From Fodinibius salicampi (GTDB lineage Bacteria; Bacteroidota; Rhodothermia; Balneolales; Balneolaceae): DNA of 64,000 nt. Location: NCBI RefSeq assembly GCF_039545095.1, contig NZ_BAABRS010000004.1:62001-126000 (forward strand). Reading direction: 5' to 3'. Made by a program: the position numbers and the translations under genes. The notes beneath the pieces were generated by a model that saw nothing but the letters and a program-made list of their open reading frames with translations, searched no databases and was not told the origin of the DNA. Of this stretch, positions 42,566 through 52,351 are shown one piece after another; position 1 is the first letter of the stretch; every line of letters begins with the position of its first letter.

Positions 42566-45199
42566 TTAATCTGCCCACGCTTCTGCGTTATCAAACACTT
42601 CCGCAAATTCGATACTCTCACCGTCCTTGCTGATGGTAGCCTCAAAATGGGCTTTGGCTTCTTCTTCACGCTTGATCAGTTCAGTAGCAAGCTTGTCGAT
42701 AATCTTCGTTTGTATTAGTCGCTTAAGCGGACGGGCTCCGTATACGGGATCGTATCCGCGTTCGGCCAGCCAGTCTTTAACATTGTCTGAAACCGACAGC
42801 TTGATATCCTTTTTGTCCAGCATCTTGTGGACGCGGCTGAGTTGGATATCCACAATTTCCCGGATGTGTTCTTTCTCCAGCGGATGGAATACAATGACAT
42901 CATCCACACGGTTTAGGAACTCCGGACGAATTTGTTTCTTGAGCTGCTCCATCAGTTGATCTTGCAGTTTGTTATAGACTTCATCCGTGAATTTTCCGCC
43001 CGTCTCTTCAACTTTTTCGGAGATAAGGTGAGAACCTATGTTGCTGGTCATAATGATTATAGTATTAGTGAAATCCACCGTTACGCCTTTGTTGTCCGTA
43101 AGGCGACCTTCATCCAGTACCTGCAAGAGCATATTGAATACATCGGCATGTGCTTTTTCGATCTCATCCAGTAAAATGACTGAGTATGGCTTGCGCCGCA
43201 CAGCTTCGGTAAGCTGACCGCCTTCATCGTAGCCTACATAGCCAGGGGGGGCACCCACCAAGCGACTTACGCTGTGTCGTTCCATGTACTCACTCATATC
43301 AATGCGGACCATGGCATCTTCGTCATTAAAGAGGAAGTTGGCCAGTGAACGGGCAAGCTCGGTTTTACCAACTCCCGTTGATCCGAGGAAGAAGAACGAT
43401 CCGATGGGACGCTGGGCATCCTGCAAGCCGGCGCGTGAACGCCGCACGGCATTGGATACCGTTTCAACTGCGGGATCTTGTCCTACAACGCGCTTATGCA
43501 GTTCCTCCTCAAGGTGAACCAATTTTTCCCGTTCGCTCTGCAGCATCTTCCGAACCGGGATGCCGGTCCATCGTGATACAATATCAGCAATATCTTCGTA
43601 TTCGACTTCCTCTTTGAGCATGGCACGGCCTTCCTGCACTTCTTCCAGCTGTTCTTTCGTCTCTTCAAGATCTTTTTCCAGCTGGTTGATGGTGCCGTAT
43701 CGCAGCTCGGCTACCTTCTCATATTTTCCTTCGCGTTCCGCCTTTTCGGCTTCATTGCGCGAGGTTTCTATCGCCTGTTTGAGATCGCGTGTTTTCTTAA
43801 TCAGGTCGCGTTCGGTATCCCATTGGTTGCGCATGGTCGACCGTTTCTCTTCAAGATCAGCCAATTCTTTTTCAATATTTTCAATTTTTTCTTCATTCTG
43901 TTCCCGTTTCAGGCCCTCGCGCTCGATTTCAAGCTGACGTATTTGCCGCTCCACCTGGTCCAGTTCTTCCGGCATGGAGTCGATCTCCAGTCGCAATCGG
44001 GAAGCAGCCTCGTCAATCAGGTCGATAGCCTTGTCTGGCAGGAATCGTTCGCTGATGTACCGGTGAGAGAGTTCCGCGGCGGCTACCAGGGCTTCATCTC
44101 GAATTTTTACTCCGTGATGGAGCTCATAGCGTTCCTGGAGTCCGCGCAAAATCGAAACTGTATCTTCCACACTGGGTTCATTGATCAGCACTTTCTGCAT
44201 ACGGCGCTCGAGGGCACGGTCCTTTTCTATATACTTGCGGTACTCATCGAGGGTAGTGGCACCAATAGCGTGGAGTTCGCCGCGGGCCAGCGAGGGCTTC
44301 AGAATGTTAGCGGCATCCATAGAGCCTTCGGAAGCACCGGCTCCAACCAGTGTATGGATCTCATCAATAAAGAGAATAATTTCTCCTTCTGAGTCCTGTA
44401 CTTCGTTAACAACTGCTTTCAGTCGTTCTTCAAATTCACCACGAAATTTGGTCCCTGCCATCAGGGCCCCCATATCAAGAGCAACAATACGCTTGGACTT
44501 CAGCCCCTCTGGCACATCGCCGCGGTTTATACGCAGTGCCATTCCTTCTGCAATAGCGGTCTTTCCTACTCCGGCCTCTCCGATTAATACCGGGTTATTC
44601 TTGGTGCGCCGGGAAAGAATCTGCATGACGCGCCGGATCTCCTGGTCGCGGCCAATAACTGGGTCAAGTTTATTCTTTTCAGCCTCTTCATTAAGATCAC
44701 GGGCATATTTTTTGAGCGCATTATAGCGGCTTTCCGCATTGGGGTCATCTACTTTCTGAGAACCACGGACATCCTGCATAACCTGTAAAACATTATCCTT
44801 GGTTACACCGTGTTGTTTTAAGAGGCGTCCCGCTTCGTTTTGAGCTTTTAGCATTCCAATTAGGATATGCTCGGAACTGATGTACTCGTCTCCCATTTCA
44901 TTTGCAGATGATTGGGCCTCATCAAACAGTTCTTTGGTATCGTTTGCCAGGTACTGTCCGGATACAGATGCACCCTTAACGACCGGCAGCTTGTCGATAC
45001 GTTCTTCTAGTTCCGATTTTAGTTGAGGCACCCGCACGCCAACTTTGTTGAGAATGGTATTTACCACATTATCAGCATCGGTGAGTAACGCCATGAGAAT
45101 ATGGGCCGGAGCCACCGCCTGGTGGTTATTGCCGGAAGCCACATCAACAGCTTCCTGTACCGCTTTCTGGGCTTTAAGTGTAAATTTATCTAAATTCAT
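42566..45199 (-). CDS. clpB: ATP-dependent disaggregase ClpB
   Basis: An 877-residue Hsp100 protein, typical length. It has two Clp_N repeats (about 5-145), AAA-1 with Walker [10 protein letters not shown] (207-215) and Walker [13 protein letters not shown], a long coiled-coil middle domain (about 410-530) that distinguishes ClpB from ClpA/C, and AAA-2 with GSTGVGKTE (about 604-612) and [12 protein letters not shown]. The C-terminal D2-small domain contains [10 protein letters not shown]. It works with DnaK/DnaJ to rescue aggregated proteins. The other quality-control genes nearby (cbpA-like, DegP, Hsp20) are separate transcripts. No -24/-12 or obvious heat-shock element was found in its leader. 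Confidence 0.98.
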
Positions 45200-45456
45200 A
45201 GTGTTATAATCACTCTGTTAAAATTCATTGGTTGATCTATTCTGTTATTAAAGAAGCCAATACCATACCGCATCTTGAAATATGTCTATTTTTCAGTTTT
45301 GATATGTCATAAAGGGTGAAGCAATGAATTTGTTACTGTAACTGTGAAACCATAACCTGCCATATAGGACTAAAATGAGCAGCTTTGGCAGTTATTGAAT
45401 GATAGAATTATAATTTGTTGTTTAAATCACTAAAGCACCAATTAAATTGTTGTTTT

Positions 45457-47321: not shown

Positions 47322-48356
47322 TTACTTTTGAGCCAACTTTTTGAAGAGTTTTTTCTCCTCGGCTGAAAGTTGTTCCGGTACTTCTATTTGAATACGAACC
47401 AAGAGATCTCCCTGTTTGGATGAATGCTTGAACTTAGGCATTCCCATTCCATTCAGTCTGAAGAGTTTTCCACTTGAAGTCCCTTCCGGGATCGAAAGTT
47501 TGGCCTTGCCACTTAGTGTTTGCACGACTGTTTCACCACCCAGTACTGCGGTATATAAATCTATGGGATGATCGAGATAGAGGTTATCTCCTTTACGTTC
47601 GTACTCTTCGGGCATATTAATACGGACAGTCAGGTAAAGATCACCGCGCGCGCCGTTTCGGGCTCTTGACGTTCCCTTGCCTTTAAGTTTTAGGCGCTGA
47701 CCGTCTTTAATACCGGCTGGTATTTTAATCTTCATCTTTTCTTTCCCAACCCTGAGCGTACGGGAGGTACCTTCAAAGGCCTCTTTTAGTGAGATAGTAA
47801 CCTCGGCCTTGGTATTCTGTTTCGTTTTTGCTGATGCAGACCGCTTACGGGCATTACTTTGGTATCTTCGGCCCTGGGTGCGAGTCTGTTGAGCCTGCTC
47901 AAAAGGATTGCGCCCCCCGCCAAAAATGGTTTCAAAAAAACTGGAAAAGCCACCGCCGCGTCCGCGGGCACCTGCATCTCTGGCACCGCCGCCACCAAAC
48001 AGATCATTAATGTCAAAACCCTTTTGATAGCTTTGCTGGCGCTGTTGTCCGCCAAAGCCACGTCCCTGACTTTGTTGGCGGGCGTAGTCTGACCAGTTAA
48101 AGTCTTGGGCATTACCGCCAGCACGCTGATATTTTTTCCAATCTTTGCCGACTTTATCGTAGAGGTTTCGTTTTTCTGGGTCGCTTAACACTTCATAAGC
48201 CTCCCCGACCTCCTTGAATTTATCTTCCGCGGAGTCGTCGTCAGGATTCTTATCCGGATGATATTTGGCCGCCTTTTTGCGGTAGGCCTTTTTTATTTCA
48301 TCCTGAGATGCATCTCTGGAGACTCCCAGTATGTCGTAATAGTTTTTGTATTCCAT
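47322..48356 (-). CDS. DnaJ-family co-chaperone (CbpA type)
   Basis: A 344-residue Hsp40. The J-domain (4-68) has the HPD triad (H33-P34-D35). A Gly/Phe/Arg-rich linker follows (about 90-160). There is no cysteine zinc finger, so it is the CbpA (type II) rather than DnaJ class. The two-lobed C-terminal peptide-binding domain covers about 190-335 ('[22 protein letters not shown]', '[19 protein letters not shown]', '[14 protein letters not shown]'). It delivers substrates to DnaK. A -24/-12 promoter lies 51-66 bases upstream of the start codon, so the gene is probably under sigma-54 control. Confidence 0.95.
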
Positions 48357-48406: not shown

Positions 48407-48422
48407 AGCAAATAAAGTGCCA
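48407..48422 (-). promoter_or_regulatory. Sigma-54 (-24/-12) promoter of the CbpA-type gene
   Basis: The minus strand reads TGGCAC-TTTAT-TTGCT, exactly the GG-N10-GC layout with the TGGCAC-N5-TTGCW consensus of sigma-54 promoters. It predicts a start of transcription about 40 bases before the start codon at 48356. A similar element precedes the Hsp20 gene. Confidence 0.75.
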
Positions 48423-48476
48423 TCCTGAAAAGACTAACGATTTGTCAAAAAGAGAGAATGTCTTCGCCAGCTTGTC

Positions 48477-48544: not shown

Positions 48545-50032
48545 TTAGAGCTCAAAAGCGATGTATTGCTTGTTACCGCCACGCAATACCTGTAAGAGAA
48601 CAACATTATCGTCTCCTTCAGCGATACTGCGAACAGCTTCTTGAAATTCACCTACAGAAGATATAGGATTGCGATCTACTGATATGATAACATCGCCTCT
48701 TTGCAGGCCCTGTTGCTGAGCATTACTTCCGCGCGTAACCTCTGTTACTACAACGCCTTCCTGACCGGGATCCAGCTGTAGCTGCCGCGCGATTTCACTA
48801 TTCAGATTACGGACGCTAAAGCCAAGCTGTTCGTCCATTGATTCTCTGTCAGTAGGTCTGTTTTGGTTCGCCATCATCTCGTCAGGCATTTCACCAAGGG
48901 TGACCGTAATATCCCGGGTATCTCCATCACGATTTATCGTTAATTCTACCTCGTCGCCCGGAGAGGAGGTACCGATTTCAGTGCGGAACGCACCCCAATT
49001 TCGGATGGGTTCACCATCAATAGCCTGGATAACATCATCTTCTTGAAGACCAGCCTCTTTTGCAGGACCATCTTCCTCAACGCTACCTACAATAACGCCG
49101 TATGGCTGATCAAGACCCAGAGCTTTTGCCATGGTAGCATCCACTTCACCACCCATTGAGATACCTAAATATCCACGTGTAACATGGCCGTGCTCAATAA
49201 TCGATTCCATCACGCTTTTGGCGATATTTATGGGAACCGCGAAGCCGATACCGTCATTACCTCCGGAACGCGAAGCAATTGCCGTATTGATGCCGATAAG
49301 CTCGCCATTCATATTGACCAATGCGCCACCGGAATTACCGGGATTAATAGCAGCATCCGTCTGAATGAATCGCTCATAGCCTCCCTGTTCCGCTAGAATG
49401 CCAACATGGCGATCTTTAGCCGAAACAATTCCCATCGATACGGAGTGGGCAAGTTCAGCCCCAAGGGGACTTCCTATGGCCAGTACCATTTCGCCCACGC
49501 GGATCTGTTCGCTGTTACCCAACTCAATCACGTTGAGATCTTCTGTATCAACCTTTAAAACAGCAATATCCGTTTGGGGATCTGTACCCACGACCTCAGC
49601 GGTTGTTCTTGTGTCGTCATAGAATTTAACTTCTACTTCATCAGCATTTGCAACCACATGATTATTGGTCAGGATATATCCGTCCTGTGATACGATGACA
49701 CCGGATCCTAGTCCTTGACGCCGATACTGTTCAGGTTCTCCCTGGGGATTGCCAAAAAAACGAGAAAATGGATTTTGTCGTTCTACGGTCTTAGTTACCC
49801 GAACCGTTACTACCGTAGGATTTGTTTGATCGGCAATATTGACAATAGCGTCGTTGAAGTCCTGAAGGGTAGGAGCATTCTGATTATTTGATTGGGGGAC
49901 TTCTGTAGTAGAGGAGAAATCGGGCATGGTAAAGACAGAGGCTTTCTCCGACTCCAAATCAAGGGTATAAAACCCTAAAAGGAGTACCGCAGCCAAAATC
50001 CAAAGTACATTCGAATATTTAATGTTTTTCAT
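48545..50032 (-). CDS. DegP/HtrA-family periplasmic serine endoprotease
   Basis: A 495-residue Do-family protease. One N-terminal membrane/signal helix (8-25) directs it to the periplasm. The trypsin-like domain has the full triad H125 (TNNHVV), D155 (DIAVLKV) and S234 (GNSGGAL). Two PDZ domains follow (about 285-375 and 410-490), with YLGISMG and GFSVRNL at their starts. It degrades or refolds misfolded envelope proteins. There is a well-formed terminator downstream. The 190 bases upstream of its start contain no clear sigma-54 element. Confidence 0.96.
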   Translation of the reverse strand: MKNIKYSNVLWILAAVLLLGFYTLDLESEKASVFTMPDFSSTTEVPQSNNQNAPTLQDFNDAIVNIADQTNPTVVTVRVTKTVERQNPFSRFFGNPQGEPEQYRRQGLGSGVIVSQDGYILTNNHVVANADEVEVKFYDDTRTTAEVVGTDPQTDIAVLKVDTEDLNVIELGNSEQIRVGEMVLAIGSPLGAELAHSVSMGIVSAKDRHVGILAEQGGYERFIQTDAAINPGNSGGALVNMNGELIGINTAIASRSGGNDGIGFAVPINIAKSVMESIIEHGHVTRGYLGISMGGEVDATMAKALGLDQPYGVIVGSVEEDGPAKEAGLQEDDVIQAIDGEPIRNWGAFRTEIGTSSPGDEVELTINRDGDTRDITVTLGEMPDEMMANQNRPTDRESMDEQLGFSVRNLNSEIARQLQLDPGQEGVVVTEVTRGSNAQQQGLQRGDVIISVDRNPISSVGEFQEAVRSIAEGDDNVVLLQVLRGGNKQYIAFEL

Positions 50033-50155: not shown

Positions 50156-50186
50156 GGCGGAAGCTACTTTTCAGGCAACTTCCGCC
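50156..50186 (-). terminator. Probable terminator after Hsp20
   Basis: GGCGGAAG (50156-50163) and CTTCCGCC (50179-50186) form an 8-bp stem with a 15-base loop. On the minus strand TTTCTCTT follows. It lies between the Hsp20 stop and the degP promoter. Confidence 0.6.
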
Positions 50187-50222: not shown

Positions 50223-50651
50223 TTAACTTATTTCAATTTGTTTTTTCACTTTGTCTTCATTTTTGTCGATGGAGATATTCAGAAGGCCGTCTTCATACGA
50301 GGCTTGAATGCTATTCTCATCGACGTTGTCCGGAAGCTGGAAGGAACGGTTGAAAGAACCATAACTGGTTTCTACCCGATGGAAGGTTTTGCCTTCCTCT
50401 TCATTTTTAAATTGCCGTTCACCGCTGATGCTCAGCCGTCCATTTTCCAGACTGATATCAATATCTTCCTTTTTCATGCCGGGCAGCTCAGCAGATATTT
50501 GGAACTGCTTTTCTGTCTCTGAGATGTCAATGCCGGGCACAAAACTATCACGGCGCGAACTTACAACATCGTTGAAAAATTCGTCCATGATATCAGAAAA
50601 TCGTTTGGATGCCACGTCTTTGTTGGGTCGGTTATATCTTACAAGTGTCAT
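50223..50651 (-). CDS. Small heat-shock protein (Hsp20/alpha-crystallin)
   Basis: A 142-residue chaperone with the alpha-crystallin domain at about 40-140: 'VPGIDISETEKQFQISAELPGMKKEDIDISLENGRLSISGER', 'RVETSYGSFNRSFQLPDNVDENSIQASYEDGLLNISI' and a C-terminal I-x-I-like KKQIEIS tail. It prevents aggregation under stress and hands clients to DnaK/ClpB. The gene has the strongest ribosome-binding site in this region (AGGAGG, 7 bases before the ATG). A -24/-12 sigma-54 type promoter lies about 70 bases upstream. Confidence 0.97.
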   Translation of the reverse strand: MTLVRYNRPNKDVASKRFSDIMDEFFNDVVSSRRDSFVPGIDISETEKQFQISAELPGMKKEDIDISLENGRLSISGERQFKNEEEGKTFHRVETSYGSFNRSFQLPDNVDENSIQASYEDGLLNISIDKNEDKVKKQIEIS

Positions 50652-50718
50652 AATAATTACCTCCTAAAAGGTTTTTGTTTAAAAGTTGTTTTGTTTCAAT
50701 CAAACTCACTTTTAAAGG

Positions 50719-50735
50719 AGCAATAGCTATGCCAA
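50719..50735 (-). promoter_or_regulatory. Sigma-54 (-24/-12) promoter of the Hsp20 gene
   Basis: The minus strand reads TTGGCATAGCTATTGCT. It has GG and GC separated by exactly 10 bases and matches TTGGCA-N6-TTGCW. Transcription would begin near 50709, giving a leader of about 58 bases with an AGGAGG site. It has the same layout as the element before the CbpA-type gene at 48407-48422. Confidence 0.7.
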
Positions 50736-50877
50736 GGCGGGAAAGAGGAATAAGCGGCTGACATTCAGCCAGAAGGAACTGATTTTTTTACAGAAACGAT
50801 GGAGGGCAGCAAAAAAATGTCATAGCTCCCGTCGACAAAGCGACAGCGGGCTGTATTTGTGGCAGGGATTAGTAAAT

Positions 50878-50926
50878 TGGTTGTCAGTTATTGGTAATTT
50901 GGGATGAGACCAATAACTGACAACCA
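50878..50926. repeat. 18-bp perfect inverted repeat
   Basis: TGGTTGTCAGTTATTGGT (50878-50895) and its exact reverse complement (50909-50926) enclose a 13-base loop. It lies 24 bases beyond the DAHP synthase stop codon. The minus strand after the hairpin reads AATTTACTAAT, so it is a poor terminator and more like a mobile-element remnant or a protein- or RNase-binding hairpin. Confidence 0.7.
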
Positions 50927-50950: not shown

Positions 50951-52351
50951 TTAACTATAACTTTTTTTCCATTCTTTAGCTACAAGGAAAGCCATTTCTA
51001 AGCTTTGTTCATAGTTAAGGCGCGGATCGCAGTACGTTTCGTAGTTGTGGTGAAGCTCTCCTTCATGCAGACCTTTAGCTCCTCCCACACACTCCGTTAC
51101 ATTATCTCCGGTAAGCTCCAGGTGTACACCGCCAAGGTAACTTCCCTGGTCGCGGTGGATGGCAAATGTTTTGCGCATTTCGGAGAGAATATCGTCGAAA
51201 TTACGAGTTTTTATATCGTCATCGGTAGCAAAAGTATTTCCATGCATGGGATCGCAACTCCATACTACCGGCATCCCCTCATGCTTGATGCGCTGGATTA
51301 GGTCCGGCAGTCCCTTTTCTACTTCGTCTTTACCGAAGCGGGTAATAAGAACAATCTTTCCCTGCTCGTGGACCGGATTCAGCTTATTGATAAGATTCAA
51401 CGTTTCATCTATATCGTAATTTGGTCCGATCTTAATTCCAATAGGATTACGGATTCCACGCAAATATTCTACGTGTGCTTCATCTATATTGCGGGTCCGA
51501 TTTCCCAGCCATACCATATGGGCACTCAGATTGTACCATCCTTCGCGGCGGGGCACCTGGCGTGTTTGTGCAGAATCGTAATGGAGATTCAGAGCTTCGT
51601 GCGAAGTATAAAGATTAACTTTCTGTACAGTATTAAACTGGTTGGGCGTGATGGTTTCCATAAAGCTAACCGCTTTCTGTATGGAGTTAACCATCTCTTC
51701 GTATTCCTTATAATACTTGTTTTCGCGCATGAAATCCAGCTCCCAATACTCCGGATGGTGGAGATCTGCAAAGCCCTCATCGGCCAATCCGCGGAGGAAA
51801 TTAAGCGTTAAGGCCGCCTTTTCATATCCTTTGAGAAGTCTTTGCGGATCAGGCATGCGGTCCTCGCGAGTAGGGTTGATGCTATTGATCAGATCGCCCC
51901 GGTAGTTATGAATCTTTTCGCCATCCACAATTTCAAAATCATTGGAACGGGGTTTCGCATACTGTCCGGCAATACGTCCGATACGGACGATAGGTGTTTC
52001 CATCTCGTGAATGAGTATAAAACTCATCTGTAGCAATACCTTCAGCAAATTGACAATCTTGGGCGACTTGCATCCGGCAAAGCTTTCAGCACAATCTCCT
52101 CCCTGTAGCAAAAAACTGCGTCCCGCAGCTACATTTGCGAGTTTGTTCTTTAGTGCTTCAACTTCCCAGGAAGTAATAAGCGGTGGATTTTTCCGTAATT
52201 CTTCATACGCTTTTTGCAGTTCTTCCTCATCCGGATATGGAGGTAACTGCTTGATGGGAAAGTCTTTCCAAGAAGTTGGAGACCAGTCTTTAGGGTTTGC
52301 AACTTCGGTTGCTACAGATTTATCTGAAAACATGATGTTACTTTGATTCAA
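50951..52351 (-). CDS. Class II 3-deoxy-7-phosphoheptulonate synthase (DAHP synthase)
   Basis: A 466-residue enzyme of the plant-like/type II DAHP synthase family: LQGGDCAESF, RIGRIAGQYAKPRS, WVG/WLGNRTR, 'GIRNPIGIKIGP', 'WSCDPMHGNTF' and 'GVHLELTGDNVTECVGG', with the typical C-terminal CDPRLNYEQSLE. It condenses phosphoenolpyruvate and erythrose 4-phosphate in the first step of aromatic amino acid synthesis. The listed start gives six more residues than the internal ATG at 52333; either could be used. No other shikimate genes are near. No leader-peptide attenuator was seen. Confidence 0.96.
   Translation of the reverse strand: MNQSNIMFSDKSVATEVANPKDWSPTSWKDFPIKQLPPYPDEEELQKAYEELRKNPPLITSWEVEALKNKLANVAAGRSFLLQGGDCAESFAGCKSPKIVNLLKVLLQMSFILIHEMETPIVRIGRIAGQYAKPRSNDFEIVDGEKIHNYRGDLINSINPTREDRMPDPQRLLKGYEKAALTLNFLRGLADEGFADLHHPEYWELDFMRENKYYKEYEEMVNSIQKAVSFMETITPNQFNTVQKVNLYTSHEALNLHYDSAQTRQVPRREGWYNLSAHMVWLGNRTRNIDEAHVEYLRGIRNPIGIKIGPNYDIDETLNLINKLNPVHEQGKIVLITRFGKDEVEKGLPDLIQRIKHEGMPVVWSCDPMHGNTFATDDDIKTRNFDDILSEMRKTFAIHRDQGSYLGGVHLELTGDNVTECVGGAKGLHEGELHHNYETYCDPRLNYEQSLEMAFLVAKEWKKSYS

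Follow-up and report, generated by a model that had tools for sequence, protein, structure and literature searches.

The window analysed here, a 64,000-nucleotide stretch of DNA, carries on its minus strand a small heat-shock gene, hsp20, preceded by the sigma-54-type -24/-12 element TTGGCATAGCTATTGCT. Within this 17-mer, the GG at 50733-50732 is followed by ten bases and then by the GC at 50721-50720, which reproduces the GG-N10-GC spacing described in the initial annotation; the AGGAGG ribosome-binding site described there is likewise present, at 50665-50660. The TGGCA of the element begins 83 nt upstream of the hsp20 ATG at 50651, and the usual -24/-12 numbering predicts a transcription start at approximately 50708, so that the leader, which has a strong ribosome-binding site, would measure ~57 nt. 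A second element of the same type stands before a gene for a CbpA/DnaJ-type co-chaperone, and the distance between the two sites, given earlier as 2.3 kb, was measured as 2.31 kb. The features of the locus, all on the minus strand, are as follows.

42566-45199, minus strand: ClpB disaggregase (NCBIfam TIGR03346, above cut-off)
45255-45270, minus strand: weaker variant -24/-12-like element CGGTATGGTATTGGCT before clpB (keeps GG-N10-GC; conserved)
47322-48356, minus strand: CbpA/DnaJ-type co-chaperone, 344 aa (Pfam DnaJ and DnaJ_C)
48407-48422, minus strand: sigma-54-type element TGGCACTTTATTTGCT of the cbpA/dnaJ-like gene (exact motif match)
48443-48447, minus strand: TGACA box of cbpA, 25 bp upstream of the cbpA -24 element
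48545-50032, minus strand: DegP/HtrA-type protease, the contrast gene, with no such element upstream
50156-50186, minus strand: terminator-like hairpin 3' of hsp20 (consensus scan only)
50223-50651, minus strand: Hsp20, small heat-shock protein, 142 aa (Pfam HSP20, 2e-29)
50660-50665, minus strand: ribosome-binding site AGGAGG, 8 nt before the hsp20 ATG
50719-50735, minus strand: sigma-54-type -24/-12 element TTGGCATAGCTATTGCT of hsp20 (sequence, motif scans, conservation)
50759-50771, minus strand: dyad TGGCTGAATGTCA with its TGTCA half at -29, a putative enhancer-binding-protein site (box and dyad scans)
50818-50822, minus strand: second box of hsp20, TGACA, 88 bp upstream of the -24 element
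50860-50864, minus strand: third box of hsp20, TGCCA, 130 bp upstream of the -24 element

The named loci nearest by Hsp20 identity belong to Fodinibius/Aliifodinibius (77-82%), and the CbpA/DnaJ-type protein reached no NCBIfam equivalog cut-off. Terminator-like hairpins were returned by the consensus scan downstream of both hsp20 and degP, so these genes may be separate units; the scan found eight hairpins against a shuffle mean of 4.1, and it also flagged the dyad stretch 50759-50771 as a hairpin. Further upstream, a long inverted repeat, TTGGTTGTCAGTTATTGGT ... ACCAATAACTGACAACCA, spans approximately 50878-50926 of the window and separates hsp20 from the gene at 50951-52351. At the corresponding position, three relatives (loci L026, L032 and L036) show by eye an apparent hairpin of different sequence.

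The window holds two exact matches to TGGCAYN5TTGCW, one at 50719 and one at 48407, and each is oriented in the sense of the chaperone gene that follows it. When up to two mismatches are allowed, 62 matches are found versus a shuffle mean of 56, which is chance level. Across the whole genome (3.94 Mb), eight exact matches were found versus six for a reversed-pattern control, so the motif alone is not enriched. Five of these eight sites lie ~40-100 nt before a chaperone start in sense orientation, and the genes behind them are hsp20, cbpA, grpE-dnaJ, a second hsp20 and hsp20-dnaK (the dnaJ-like, miaB-like and flagellar genes of this genome were named by eye). The remaining three are situated before a multicopper-oxidase gene, downstream of a miaB-like gene and inside a gene. 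A strict site was not found for the fourth hsp20 gene of the genome. Dropping the last base of the motif added two sites in flagellar regions and others inside genes. In a relative (G008), four of the six exact sites fall inside genes, and the two non-coding ones precede GrpE and Hsp20 genes. It is the placement of the sites, not the motif count, that exceeds chance.

Conservation was assessed in a family sample of 92 Balneolaceae genomes, including the present one, of which 90 had an Hsp20 match and 89 were examined, one genome (G071) being left out of the hsp20 set with a best Hsp20 match of only 46%. The relaxed pattern TGGYAY-N5-YTGY was present at -90 to -50 of hsp20 in 84 of the 89 genomes, these 84 coming from 19 of the 20 genera examined, and the strict pattern TGGCAY-N5-YTGC in 62. 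Four control windows contained no hsp20-type element, and the shuffle maximum over the 89 genomes was one. The TGG, A and TG that are invariant in the 84 cores are so partly by construction, as the selecting pattern demands them. The five exceptions retain near-matches such as TGGCATTAGGTTTGA. Among 22 named Balneolaceae-like loci, the hsp20 site was strict in 20, and 15 had a strict site at the cbpA position, followed in 14 by a DnaJ-type gene. The initial annotation had proposed comparing the upstream regions of the Hsp20 and CbpA-type genes in relatives, and had held that loss of the element in close relatives would count against it; the element proved to be kept before both genes (hsp20, relaxed form, 84/89; cbpA, 9/10), and all but one of the genera retain it at hsp20. 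As a separate observation, GTGA occurs 10-11 nt past the -12 element in 40 of the 84 hsp20 leaders, near the predicted transcription start.

The grpE gene was traced in the same way. A grpE match was obtained in 37 of 39 family genomes, and the strict site was present in 29 of 30 fetched loci, placed by BLAST, with the remaining one reading TTGT. Seven further loci all carried TGGCAYN5TTGC (7/7), so that grpE is preceded by the element in 37 of 37 Balneolaceae loci in total.

The genes around hsp20 were compared in 20 syntenic loci, in which clpB was found in 19 and cbpA in 10. The relaxed element precedes hsp20 in 20/20 and cbpA in 9/10; it was found before clpB in 0/19 and before degP in 0/20, several degP starts having fallen on a codon other than ATG, which makes those degP windows approximate. 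Of the 14 loci (among 21 stretches) where clpB could be placed, 13 carry the variant GGYAYNRTWTTNG between -80 and -40 of the gene, and the control windows carry none. The groES gene has a TGGTAT form, TGGTATGGTACTTGC, ~140 nt upstream. The set of genes with the element is thus wider than the two initially named. The same annotation had placed ClpB and DegP between the two sites, had described both as devoid of the element and had divided the quality-control genes into two regulatory groups. For DegP, the position, the absence of the element and the split all stand; ClpB, however, lies beyond CbpA and has its own conserved -24/-12 variant, and the division does not apply to it. In another locus (L066, from 7211 onward, the same place as L311), the cbpA-position element TGGCACTTTATTTGC is kept and is followed, by eye, by a phage-type-integrase-like open reading frame; neither cbpA nor clpB was found in this stretch, where a mobile element has perhaps been inserted right behind the cbpA-position promoter.

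A second conserved feature, the pentamer TGNCA, accompanies the elements at a nearly fixed distance, with positions counted upstream from the T of TGGCA in the -24 element. It lies between -29 and -27 in 81 of the 84 hsp20 promoters and in all 29 grpE promoters (one of the 30 grpE loci, L115, being unplaced in this count), and at -26 in 11 of 15 cbpA promoters. The hsp20 promoters have further TGNCA boxes at -90 to -87 (80/84) and at -132 to -130 (40/84). Seven grpE promoters that had not been used to find the box carry it at -28/-27 in six cases; in the exception, G079, no TGNCA lies closer than 140 bp to the grpE site, and the hsp20 site likewise has no box between -25 and -29. A 13-bp dyad, TGNCR-N3-YGNCA, counted when at least seven of its eight positions matched, was present at 43/84 hsp20 (shuffle mean 3.1), 15/15 cbpA (0.4) and 9/11 clpB promoters (0.2). 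It starts mostly at -36/-35 in hsp20 and at -26/-25 in the others, a shift of ~10 bp or one helical turn. At Balneolaceae grpE, the dyad is weak (2/29, shuffle mean 1.1). A full palindrome TGNC-N5-GNCA at every promoter was considered and rejected, since most Balneolaceae grpE promoters retain just one of its halves.

Within the present genome, TGNCA at 25-29 bp was found only for hsp20, cbpA and grpE, with the box elsewhere at hsp20b (-36), hsp20-dnaK (-37) and groES (-18). The flagellar, miaB-downstream and multicopper-oxidase sites have no TGNCA at the 25-29 bp distance. For comparison of grpE outside the family, 30 non-Balneolaceae genomes were hand-chosen from 148 phylum genomes. Of the 16 sampled Bacteroidota outside the class, 11 have a loose TGG-type grpE site with TGNCA at exactly -25/-26, as exemplified by TGACATTTTGACATTTTTAAAGAAATGGCAGTACTTTTGC.

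In other bacteria, the HrcA/CIRCE system controls the same kind of genes, including grpE, whereas the present genome (98.5% complete) gave no match to the HrcA profile PF01628, which had matches in 7 of 14 control genomes. Ten genomes of the same class outside the order were sampled, and in seven of them an hrcA-like coding sequence, called by a short motif, immediately precedes grpE; these seven have no grpE sigma-54 site by the pattern used. In the sister family of the order, the same motif found hrcA-like sequence upstream of grpE in 0 of 4 genomes, and TTGGTATGAAATTTGC-type sites are present at grpE. The distribution is consistent with a swap between HrcA and sigma-54 control, as judged from a small sample and an hrcA call by short motif.

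The genome encodes one complete RpoN with all three Pfam domains. The sigma-54 activation domain PF00158 has eight matches, four of them strong (E-value 2e-69 or better), and the weak ones include ClpB. The four clear enhancer-binding proteins comprise three with a receiver domain, one of which is encoded among flagellar genes, and one without. Together with conservation, the complete RpoN and these four proteins strongly support the sigma-54-type promoter that had been postulated before Hsp20. The receiver-less protein is a 434-aa AAA+/Fis protein whose gene is followed by lptE. It has an N-terminal AAA+ domain with GESGVGK (Walker A) and GSFTGA (a GAFTGA-type loop), ~125 aa with no Pfam hit and a C-terminal Fis-type helix-turn-helix (HTH). 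No receiver or other Pfam sensor domain was found in it. In domain order it resembles the PspF/HrpS type, with AAA+ at the N-terminus, no receiver and a Fis-type HTH at the C-terminus, and it differs from that type in its linkage to lptE and in the ~125-aa segment before the HTH. None of the 25 NCBIfam models shown for it reaches its cut-off, the PspF profile also scoring below its own.

Of 30 loci, 21 have an lptE-like motif, a crude motif only, downstream of the activator gene. The receiver-less activator query has a match in each of the 148 phylum genomes, but the search also sees paralogues and only ~75 of the best matches extend to its C-terminus, so that the protein may be less than universal. 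The expected arrangement, in which groESL follows the lptE-linked activator gene, was not encountered here, with groES on contig C2 and the activator on C1.

The receiver-less protein was the only enhancer-binding protein found in four genomes (G079, G089, G090 and G085), all of which retain TGGCAYN5TTGC at grpE. The activator scan skipped GSFTGA proteins; those of the four genomes passed, and that of a fifth genome, G192, was read from its neighbourhood. At hsp20, the site is strict in G079, reads TGGCATACCATTTGT in G085 and is the deviant TGGCCTCCGTTTTGC in G089 and G090. G079 is the most complete of the four (96%); the other three reach 87-90% completeness, and their data may therefore have missed a second activator. 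By elimination in genomes where no other was found, the receiver-less protein is the best candidate for the activator, although the absence of the usual TGNCA box from G079 speaks against a simple link between activator and box. In G192, which is complete and has a single activator, no grpE site was found by the patterns used. Of note, a thioredoxin-like gene in G192 (locus L179) is preceded by a sigma-54-type site, upstream of which lies TGTCTGACA.

In view of its conservation and placement, the hsp20 element is probably a functional RpoN promoter, one of a set that would drive much of the cytoplasmic chaperone machinery of Balneolaceae. Members of this set would be three hsp20 genes, cbpA, grpE-dnaJ, dnaK and probably groESL and clpB. 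The sigma-54 holoenzyme would occupy TGGCAY-N5-TTGC in a closed complex, and an enhancer-binding protein would be bound at TGNCA-type sites 25-36 bp upstream, and at hsp20 also at ~88 and 130 bp. Its ATP hydrolysis would open the complex under protein-folding stress. Both the binding of RpoN to the elements and the inducing signal are what we infer from sequence. We lean, by a modest degree, towards the 434-aa receiver-less protein beside lptE as the activator. That it binds the TGNCA boxes is a proposal that falls just short of probable. More speculative, and in our estimate rather unlikely, is an idea prompted by the lack of a Pfam sensor domain: that a partner, perhaps a chaperone, holds the activator back and frees it when unfolded proteins accumulate.

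The strongest competing explanation leaves sigma-54 in charge of the gene and assigns the TGNCA box and dyad to a separate regulator, either a repressor or a co-activator. We regard it as the lesser possibility, albeit one to be taken seriously. The spacing between the box and the -24 element, constant to within 3 bp in 81 of 84 hsp20 promoters, is rigid for an enhancer, and G079 retains its promoters with no box at that distance; both points favour this alternative. On the other hand, the intervals of ~43 and 60 bp between the hsp20 boxes and the shift of the dyad by one helical turn are as expected for enhancer sites, and sigma-54 needs an activator in any case.

In a second alternative, the promoter is again of sigma-54 type but its activator is one of the three enhancer-binding proteins with a receiver (two-component type), for instance the one encoded beside a PAS-type histidine kinase (G000:C3:466638). 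The box missing from its usual distance in G079 could then belong to another activator that was lost there. However, receiver-bearing activators were not found in any of the four genomes in which the receiver-less protein was the only one found, and grpE keeps its sigma-54 element in all of them, which leaves this alternative improbable. Heat control by an RNA thermometer in the leader, with the promoter incidental, could appeal to the ~57-nt leader and its strong ribosome-binding site, but stable structure around that site was not found in the 25 of 84 leaders that were folded (no stronger than shuffles, mean z 0.13), and we rejected it as very improbable. An element unrelated to sigma-54, arising by chance or as part of a vegetative promoter of the Bacteroidota pattern TTG-N17-22-TAnnTTTG, can be practically dismissed: the genomic motif count equals that of the control and TAnnTTTG alone occurs in 8/89 hsp20 upstream regions and near 7/29 grpE sites, but the full pattern occurs in 0/89 hsp20 upstream regions, which largely refutes a vegetative promoter there, the sigma-70 scan returned no site between the hsp20 ATG and 51000, and chance is ruled out by placement and conservation.

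The sigma-54 promoter favoured at hsp20 has a counterpart in E. coli ibpB, a small heat-shock gene whose sigma-54 promoter supplements sigma-32; in the present genome, the promoter type recurs across chaperone genes. Sigma-54 control of chaperones in Bacteroidota is not new, as it was predicted in 2025 by Carrera-Reyna et al. (PMC12316311), who, in the passages considered here, describe a predicted sigma-54 chaperone regulon in Bacteroidota and Planctomycetota, enriched in Flavobacteriia, Bacteroidia and Cytophagia, with GroEL, GroES, an IbpA-type small heat-shock protein, GrpE, DnaJ and DnaK as predicted targets. That article calls grpE sigma-54 dependent and cites its reference 80 for this; under that number, its reference list gives a paper about nitrogen recycling in Blattabacterium. 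Its main text does not contain the terms Balneol-, Rhodotherm-, Hsp20, HrcA, LptE or UAS, and the same passages assign no activator to the chaperones. Our sites at grpE-dnaJ, hsp20-dnaK, three of the four hsp20 genes and groES (in the TGGTAT form) parallel the regulon as outlined there, whereas cbpA, the clpB variant, the fixed TGNCA box and the candidate activator are additions of the present analysis. As far as our searches reach, the depth of conservation in Balneolaceae, the membership of cbpA and clpB, the fixed box and the activator candidate are new, and chaperone control in Bacteroidota and their relatives is known only from promoter prediction.

On a broader scale, we tentatively suggest, as possible rather than probable, a proteostasis response across Bacteroidota that operates with neither sigma-32 nor HrcA. 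The single receiver-less, lptE-linked activator would be an unrecognised chaperone master of the phylum, reading TGNC-N5-GNCA at a fixed distance from the sigma-54 promoters of grpE, hsp20, cbpA, dnaK, groES and clpB, with HrcA acting on grpE in Rhodothermia outside Balneolales. If this were true, the heat-shock response of a major bacterial group would be an ATP-driven, enhancer-dependent switch instead of relying on a dedicated heat-shock sigma factor or HrcA. What makes it testable is that the data single out one candidate activator and one fixed DNA element.

Two of the exact genomic sites outside the chaperone genes deserve mention. The site at L063 5623-5637 (minus strand) is of exact sigma-54 type and precedes the multicopper-oxidase gene with no TGNCA box, and that at L048 2190-2204 lies just 3' of the miaB-like gene, where that strand encodes no gene. 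The gene of the receiver-less activator is located directly 3' of a miaB-like gene in both G192 and G089, and this adjacency suggests that the L048 site may mark a rearrangement.
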